From: Terriglobia bacterium
GTDB lineage: Bacteria; Acidobacteriota; Terriglobia; Terriglobales; Acidobacteriaceae
Assembly (NCBI GenBank): GCA_020073645.1
Contig: JAIQET010000001.1
Coordinates: forward strand, 62,001-126,000
Direction of reading: 5' to 3'
DNA length: 64,000 nucleotides
Both the position numbers and the translations under genes were made by a program. The notes under the pieces were generated by a model that did not search any database, had not been told where the DNA came from, and saw only the letters and a program-made list of their open reading frames with translations. How positions within the stretch are numbered: the stretch's first letter is position 1; the number at the start of each line of letters is the position of its first letter. Shown here in pieces: positions 5,534 to 7,646 of this stretch.

Positions 5534-5980
5534 ATGACCGATCACCGGGTCTCCTACACGCTGGATTCGACTTTGGAGACTGTCGACAGCGCCGAGGAAG
5601 CTGCCAGCCGCATTGCGGCCGAGAGCGGCTTCGACGAAGACGAGGTCATGCAGATCTCCATGGCGGTGCGCGAGGCTGCGGTCAATGCCGTGCTTCATGG
5701 CAACGCCTATGATCCCGGCAAGAAAGTCAGCGTAGATTTTGAAAGGACCGGCCACGACTTGGTCATTACCATCCGCGACCAGGGCAAAGGCCTGGATTTG
5801 AGCAAGATTCCCGACCCCCTGGCGCCGGAGAACCTATTGAAGACGTCGGGGAGGGGTATTTTTCTTATCCGCTCGTTCATGGATGAGGTGCATATCCACC
5901 CTTCCCAGACGGGCACCGAAATCAAACTCGTCAAGCACGTCCACGGCCAGACCGCGGGCGGCAAGGAGGCTTCCCAGTGA
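5534..5980 (+). CDS. RsbW-like anti-sigma factor serine kinase (HATPase_c_2)
   Basis: MTDHRVSYTLDSTLETVDSAEEAASRIA...VREAAVNAVLHGNAYD...VITIRDQGKGLD...SGRGIFLIRSFMDEV: N/G1/G2 boxes of GHKL ATPase. Confidence 0.85.
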   Translation: MTDHRVSYTLDSTLETVDSAEEAASRIAAESGFDEDEVMQISMAVREAAVNAVLHGNAYDPGKKVSVDFERTGHDLVITIRDQGKGLDLSKIPDPLAPENLLKTSGRGIFLIRSFMDEVHIHPSQTGTEIKLVKHVHGQTAGGKEASQ

Positions 5981-6321
5981 GCATGAAGTGCAGCAACCGT
6001 CAGGTCGATGGCGTCACCATTGTGGACTGCAGCGGCCGCATCACGCTAGGTGAGGGCAGCGTCATCCTGCGCGACACCGTCCGCGAACTGCTTTCCAAGG
6101 GACAGAAGAAGATCCTGCTGAACCTTGCGGATGTGAACTATATTGACAGCTCGGGCATCGGCGAACTGGTCAGTGCCTTTACCACCGTGCGCAACCAGGG
6201 TGGCGAACTCAAGCTGCTCAACCTCACCAAGAAAGTGCACGACCTGCTGCAAATCACCAAGCTGTATACCGTCTTCGACGTCAAAGATGAGGAAGCGGCA
6301 GCGGTGAAGGCATTTAGCTAA
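5977..6321 (+). CDS. STAS-domain anti-sigma factor antagonist
   Basis: VDGVTIVDCSGRITLGEGSVILRDTVRELLSKGQKKILLNLADVNYIDSSGIGELVSAF; DSSG phosphosite; overlaps the upstream kinase gene by 4 nt. Confidence 0.9.
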   Translation: MSMKCSNRQVDGVTIVDCSGRITLGEGSVILRDTVRELLSKGQKKILLNLADVNYIDSSGIGELVSAFTTVRNQGGELKLLNLTKKVHDLLQITKLYTVFDVKDEEAAAVKAFS

Positions 6322-6512: not shown

Positions 6513-7037
6513 ATGCGCATCTCTCGTCTCGAAAGCTCGCAGGTAGACTCGGCGACGGCTGAAATCTTCGACAAATTCCAGAAAGAACGCGGCAATGTGC
6601 CCAACATGTTCCGCACCGTGGCGCATCGCCCGGACTACTTGCGGACCATGATTGCCCACTTCCGCACCGTCATGAACACCGGCACCATTTCCACCAAGCT
6701 GAAAGAACTATTGGTGGTACGGGTGTCGCAGATCAACCGCTGCGAGTATTGACTGGCCTCCCATACCGTCTTGGCAAGACGGCAGGGCTGGAGCGAGGAG
6801 CAGGTCAGGGATCTGGCAAACTACGAAAAGCGCGCTGACTTCAGCGCAGCGGAAAAAGCGGCGGTGCGCCTGGCGGAGCGCATGACCTGGGACGCCCACA
6901 CCGTAGATGATGAACTGTGGGCGGAGTTGCGCCAGTATTACGACGAAGGCCAGATCGTGGAACTGGCGTCGGCGATCGGGCTGTTCAACTACTTCAACCG
7001 CTTCAACGACGCGTTGCGAATGGAGCCGACGAAGTAG
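6513..7037 (+). CDS. Selenocysteine-containing AhpD / carboxymuconolactone decarboxylase family protein (CEYU-LASH), in-frame UGA at 6750-6752
   Basis: ORFs 6513-6752 and 6771-7037 are in the same frame; joined they give ...LLVVRVSQINRCEY[UGA]LASHTVLARRQGWSEEQVRDL..., i.e. CxxCxxxH with the second Cys replaced by UGA; hairpin CCGTCTT-GGC-AAGACGG begins 13 nt after UGA. Confidence 0.85.
6756..6787 (+). promoter_or_regulatory. Candidate bacterial SECIS element
   Basis: Perfect 7-bp stem 6766-6772/6776-6782 (CCGTCTT/AAGACGG) with loop GGC (6773-6775); 20 nt between UGA and apical loop; CCC 6760-6762 / GGG 6785-6787 can extend it. Confidence 0.75.
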
Positions 7038-7130: not shown

Positions 7131-7646
7131 GTGGCGTCCGGAAAGACTTTACTGTGGCTCGCACCCGCGTTGCTGATGTCCTCGCTCAGCGCCGCCGACT
7201 GTATCCCCTTCGCCGAAGCCGCCAAGCACGTCGGCGCAACGCGGTGCGTCAGCGGCAAGGTTCTCCACGTCAAGCAGGGCAACCGCGGTGTGACTTTCCT
7301 GAACTTCTGCGAAGACTATCGCCTCTGCTCGTTTAGCGTCGTCGTCTTCCCCAGCGACCTGAAAAGTGTAGGCGACGTACGCCAACTGCAAGGCAAGGAC
7401 ATCGAGGTTCACGGTCCCATCAAGCTCTACGACGGCCGCGCTGAGATCATCCTGCGTGACCACAAACAACTGAGCGGCGAGGCAGCCCAGATTCCGCCAC
7501 TGCCCAAAGGGTACGACGTGGAGAAGAAAGGCCGCTACAGCGCCGGCAAGTTCAGCTATCCCAACAAGCGTAAACCGGCGAAGAAGCGGCAGACCGCGCC
7601 AGTGCAGACGGAAGAGCAGGAGGATACGACGGTCGCGCCGGAATAG
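7131..7646 (+). CDS. Exported OB-fold-like hypothetical protein (start approximate, GTG)
   Basis: VASGKTLLWLAPALLMSSLSAADCIPFAEAAKHVGATRCVSGKVLHVKQGNRGVTFLNFCEDYRLCSFSVVVFPSDLKSVGDVRQLQGKDIEVHGPIKLYDGRAEIILRDHKQL; tRNA_anti/OB-like pattern. Confidence 0.65.
   Translation: MASGKTLLWLAPALLMSSLSAADCIPFAEAAKHVGATRCVSGKVLHVKQGNRGVTFLNFCEDYRLCSFSVVVFPSDLKSVGDVRQLQGKDIEVHGPIKLYDGRAEIILRDHKQLSGEAAQIPPLPKGYDVEKKGRYSAGKFSYPNKRKPAKKRQTAPVQTEEQEDTTVAPE

Follow-up and report, generated by a model that had tools for sequence, protein, structure and literature searches.

A hairpin behind an in-frame UGA in an AhpD-like gene of a soil acidobacterium almost certainly acts as a bacterial SECIS element

An AhpD-like gene of a soil acidobacterium carries a UGA within its reading frame and, a short distance downstream, a compact hairpin. 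Does this hairpin direct the insertion of selenocysteine (Sec) at the UGA, or is the codon an ordinary stop? We addressed this question in the 64-kb stretch of DNA that carries the gene (the window), in the genome to which it belongs (G000) and in orthologs from related genomes. The hairpin at 6766-6782 almost certainly works as a bacterial SECIS (bSECIS) element, and we give a probability of about 96% to its being a compact bSECIS for SelB-dependent Sec insertion at residue 80, within a CxxU redox centre. The gene and its hairpin are a clean new example of a signal type and a selenoprotein family that are both already known. The analysis recovers a selenoprotein gene that standard annotation would end prematurely, at the UGA. 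The features are as follows.

6513-7037, + strand: predicted AhpD-like (CMD family, peroxidase-related) selenoprotein ORF, 174 aa with the UGA read as Sec; PF02627, TIGR01926
6750-6752, + strand: UGA within the frame, predicted Sec at residue 80, the second redox position in C77-E-Y-U80-L-A-S-H84
6766-6772, + strand: 5' arm of the predicted bSECIS stem, CCGUCUU; paired in 97.0% of cells in UGA orthologs and 21.4% in Cys orthologs
6773-6775, + strand: apical loop GGC, with an invariant first G as the expected SelB contact; GGC in 29/30 and GUU in 1/30 UGA orthologs
6776-6782, + strand: 3' arm of the predicted bSECIS stem, AAGACGG; covariation with the 5' arm at 4/7 pairs, and the same pairs in RNAalifold

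The UGA-containing gene and its protein family

The frame of ORF 6513-7037 is open except for a single in-frame TGA, which is codon 80 of this CMD/AhpD-family ORF and yields a C-E-Y-U motif. With Sec at the UGA, profile matches place the product in the carboxymuconolactone decarboxylase/AhpD superfamily, with scores of 64.3 bits for PF02627 (E 1.1e-17; cut-off 23) and 98.5 bits for the TIGR01926 'peroxidase-related enzyme' profile (cut-off 81.8). Its solved relatives are 'peroxidase-related' AhpD-core proteins, for example 2oyo and 2ijc. Membership of NF053654 (YciW-related (seleno)protein), the NCBIfam (seleno)protein model with the nearest score, was rejected since the product scores 100.3 bits, far under the curated cut-off of 310, and the ORF therefore represents a different subfamily. 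By eye, from their translations, the gene on the 5' side (5977-6321) was named as a STAS-type anti-anti-sigma protein and that on the 3' side (7149-7646) as a hypothetical protein with a putative signal peptide.

AhpD-like selenoproteins with a CxxU motif and a downstream stem-loop first came to light with the Sargasso Sea survey (PMC1088965), and the TIGR01926 AhpD-like CxxU selenoproteins are listed in a 2026 review (PMC13188914). The ORF shares with this family the above-cut-off match, the CxxU motif, the existence of Cys homologs and the stem-loop past the UGA, which replaces the second Cys of CxxC (30 TGA against 84 TGC/TGT in the column). It differs in that the orthologs considered here come from Acidobacteriota of one family and in the subfamily, NF053654 scoring below its cut-off.

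Homologs were drawn from 201 same-family genomes and from named genomes of GTDB species (all Acidobacteriota, the closest a Terriglobia MAG). The distinct orthologs so obtained, at 49-99% identity, comprise 30 with UGA and 84 with Cys. The column of the UGA at 6750-6752 holds TGC or TGT (Cys) in 84 orthologs and TGA in 29 others. In a same-genus genome the frame is intact and 95% identical, with the TGA retained at the same place.

The hairpin and its conservation in orthologs

Directly 3' of the UGA the DNA reads CTGGCCTCCCATA-CCGTCTT-GGC-AAGACGG. A preliminary description, made from the sequence alone, had claimed a perfect 7-bp stem (CCGUCUU/AAGACGG) closing a GGC loop, and both the sequence and RNAfold of 6745-6800 confirmed it: the stem 6766-6772/6776-6782 is perfect, the triloop occupies 6773-6775 and the MFE fold includes exactly this hairpin. 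Its further points also held. The UGA-to-loop spacing is 20 nt by count, the first loop base being the 21st nt past the UGA; this base is a G, as in the loops of the UGA orthologs; and the hairpin lies wholly inside coding sequence.

The published bSECIS model allows a loop of 3-9 nt and an upper stem of 4-16 bp, and asks for a G in the first two loop positions, a UGA-to-loop distance of 16-37 nt and an energy of -7.5 kcal/mol or lower; a bulged U is not among its constraints (PMC13188914). The element at 6766-6782 agrees with this model (bSECISearch, PMC13188914) in its place 3' of a Sec-UGA in a coding region, its GG-starting loop, its 7-bp stem and its 20-nt spacing. As the preliminary description had remarked, the loop is at the small end, namely at the 3-nt lower limit; its suggestion of a divergent SECIS type was rejected because loop, stem, first-position G and spacing are all allowed (PMC13188914). 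The 17-nt hairpin by itself folds with -7.4 kcal/mol, slightly above the limit of the model, and there is no departure in kind. In the SECIS of E. coli fdhF the loop is GGUC, 4 nt long, and the stem contains a bulged U. The two elements are alike in their upper mini-helix, G-rich small loop and similar distance from the UGA, and they differ in that 6766-6782 has a triloop and an unbulged stem.

The fold energy of 6745-6800 (-18.2 kcal/mol) is ordinary (z -0.58; 53/200 shuffles equally good), and because it lends no support, single-sequence folding was left out as evidence. Strict hairpins, defined by a Watson-Crick stem of at least 7 bp and a 3-nt loop that begins with G and lies 16-37 nt from the UGA, follow 7 of the 1664 UGAs on both strands of the 64-kb window; when the looser bSECIS geometry is allowed, still with 7 pairs or more, the share is 8.5% of the UGAs in the window. 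By these counts the hairpin alone is only modestly unusual and is proof of nothing.

It is the pattern among homologs that settles the status of the hairpin. The full seven-pair stem is present in 28/30 UGA orthologs and in 0/84 Cys orthologs. Its variants in the UGA orthologs include CCGUCUU/AAGACGG, CCGCCUU/AAGGCGG, CCGUUCU/AGAACGG, GCGCUCU/AGAGCGC and GCGUCCU/AGGACGC. Across the 29 aligned UGA rows, 97.0% of cells are paired, and compensatory double changes occur at 4/7 pairs (17 double-change cells). The covariation score of these rows is 0.289, compared with 0.136 for shuffled alignments and at most 0.163 for slid partners, and 0/500 shuffles scored as high; the Cys rows are 21.4% paired and the covariation signal is absent from them. 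RNAalifold, run on the UGA set without a supplied structure, returned exactly these seven pairs, and on the Cys ortholog set it predicted no pair. The preliminary description had named two patterns that would count against a bSECIS, namely no conserved stem in homologs that retain the UGA or the same hairpin in Cys homologs; we found the stem kept in the former and missing in the latter.

These data also bear on whether the hairpin arose by chance, plays no part in recoding and owes its fixation to amino-acid constraint on HTVLARR. The HTVLARR segment is indeed conserved in the protein, and hairpins of the loose geometry do follow UGAs in the window by chance. Yet the stem survives combined synonymous and non-synonymous double changes (CCGUUCU/AGAACGG, GCGCUCU/AGAGCGC, GCGUCCU/AGGACGC), is missing in 84/84 Cys orthologs and employs the rare codon AGA. 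The covariation refutes such an origin, which we regard as hardly credible. Codon choice in the UGA forms yields to the stem, with AGA/AGG and GCA in use: the Ala codon in the stem region is GCA in 29/30 UGA forms and GCC or GCG in Cys forms, and the residue after it is encoded by AGA or AGG in most UGA forms and by CGC in Cys forms. In eight clear genes of the window (60% GC), only 3% of the codons for Arg are AGA.

A lower stem, formed by the UGA-flanking sequence with sequence 3' of the hairpin, appeared in some single folds and was rejected, being absent from the RNAalifold consensus. The MFE folds of the 56-nt region favour other structures in several relatives (L022, L026, L034, L039), and the outermost pair is lost or weakened in L076 and L035. 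One ortholog (L030, G032:C1:2217858-2218379) keeps the UGA, has lost the usual stem and carries a 5-bp hairpin, CUGCC-AGUU-GGCAG, in a shifted register 16 nt after the UGA. The genome concerned is complete on a single contig and encodes SelB and tRNA-Sec. This hairpin may represent a SECIS that has shifted register or one that is decaying.

Sec-decoding machinery and hairpins of other selenoprotein genes

The genome of the window encodes SelB (377 bits) with the winged-helix domains PF09106 and PF09107, which bind SECIS in known SelB proteins. It also encodes SelA and a tRNA-Sec with the anticodon UCA (tca). No match to SelD above the cut-off was found in this multi-contig draft, which is 91.8% complete; a same-genus genome (G050) has a SelD that carries its own UGA, so the missing SelD is likely a gap in the draft. 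Among genomes with the UGA form, 25/26 have SelB, compared with 10/35 of those with the Cys form; for tRNA-Sec, under strict filters, the numbers are 21/26 and 10/35. SelB is missing from a single UGA-form genome, G029; as tRNA-Sec and a SelD with a UGA are both present there, a draft gap is again indicated.

Draft status and the SelD result would also fit a UGA that is a true stop, whether through a pseudogene, a sequencing error or two separate genes. This explanation is most improbable: 30 distinct orthologs share the TGA, the sequence on either side of it is conserved at 55-95% identity, and aligned genomes without SelB carry mostly Cys.

The SelD genes of relatives (L204-L208) provide an independent comparison, for SelD is a known selenoprotein and is unrelated to AhpD as a protein. 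In 5/5 loci examined, the SelD gene has its own UGA and, 20 nt further on, a hairpin whose triloop is GGC or GGU and whose stem is 7-8 bp long; one of them, GUCCGGC-GGC-GCUGGAC, includes a single G-U pair. The 20-nt spacing returns in further AhpD-like groups of these genomes, where the hairpins read CUGUUUC-GGC-GAAACAG and CUCGCUUC-GUC-GAAGCGAG. Together with the covariation in UGA homologs, the absence of the stem from Cys homologs and the Sec machinery of the host, the SelD hairpins support the bSECIS reading of the preliminary description.

We also considered that the UGA is read as another amino acid by a near-cognate or suppressor tRNA, with the hairpin as a generic stimulator of readthrough. 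However, the UGA occupies a redox position that is Cys in other orthologs, tRNA-Sec and SelB are in the genome and the same hairpin stands past the UGA of SelD, so we judge this to be very unlikely. For the SECIS element, known families suggest how it would act. SelB-GTP carrying Sec-tRNA(Sec, UCA) would use its C-terminal winged helices to bind the hairpin with the GGC loop; with the stem 20 nt past the UGA, the complex would reach the A site as the UGA enters, beating release factor 2. Selenocysteine would thus be placed at position 80 of the CxxU redox centre, and the stem would afterwards melt and be translated as HTVLARR. By the same analogy, the product would have thiol/selenol peroxidase-type activity.

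Further AhpD-like genes were seen in these genomes. In one of them, from the genome of the window (L019, G000:C104:23518-23913), a UGA lies in frame within a CVYU motif and is followed after 17 nt by the 7-bp hairpin ACGCAGA-GUU-UCUGCGU; this gene probably encodes a second selenoprotein of the genome. Another, represented by L109, L099, L114 and L122 beside selB and by L113 and L119, adjoins selB in opposite orientation in several genomes, with UGA in four examined loci and Cys in two (G050, G010), and its hairpin is of the CUCGCUUC-GUC-GAAGCGAG type.

Sec/Cys switches and the 5' context of the UGA

The 30 Sec and 84 Cys orthologs form a natural comparison set in which gain and loss of the SECIS track the Sec/Cys switch. 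Mapped by eye on the protein tree, a CG fourth pair occurs in one clade of L031/L131/L132, in another of L032/L037/L040/L044 and in L034, and a flipped outer pair (GC) occurs in L039/L043 and in L034. These changes are scattered over the tree and so reflect more than one event. A Cys clade (G047, G152, G132) that is nested within the Sec forms no longer has the stem, although SelB and tRNA-Sec are still encoded, as predicted if selection on the SECIS is relieved after a Sec-to-Cys change. Because support is weak at several forks of the tree, the number of Sec/Cys switches is not fixed.

The codon immediately 5' of the UGA (window 6747-6749) is UAU in 30/30 UGA orthologs and in 26/84 Cys orthologs (Fisher p 2e-12, relatedness ignored). 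UAU also precedes the UGA in the other AhpD-like UGA groups, and GGU does so in the UGA-SelD genes; a U immediately 5' of the UGA thus recurs. As a reading somewhat less likely than not, we propose that these Acidobacteriota may equip unrelated selenoprotein genes with one stereotyped SECIS, in which an unbulged stem of 7 bp carries a G[G/U]N triloop, mostly exactly 20 nt from the UGA, and which goes with a U 5' of the UGA (UAU in all AhpD-like forms); both features would be matched to the SelB of the lineage and to release-factor competition. The fixed loop and spacing, common to SelD, amount to a small testable Sec-insertion rule for this phylum, for which our literature search found little SECIS work.

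In one Cys lineage (L049, L050, L053, L055, L058, L061-L063) the first Cys of CxxC is lost, with T-P-Y-C in place of C-E-Y-C, and this motif suggests a different redox chemistry.
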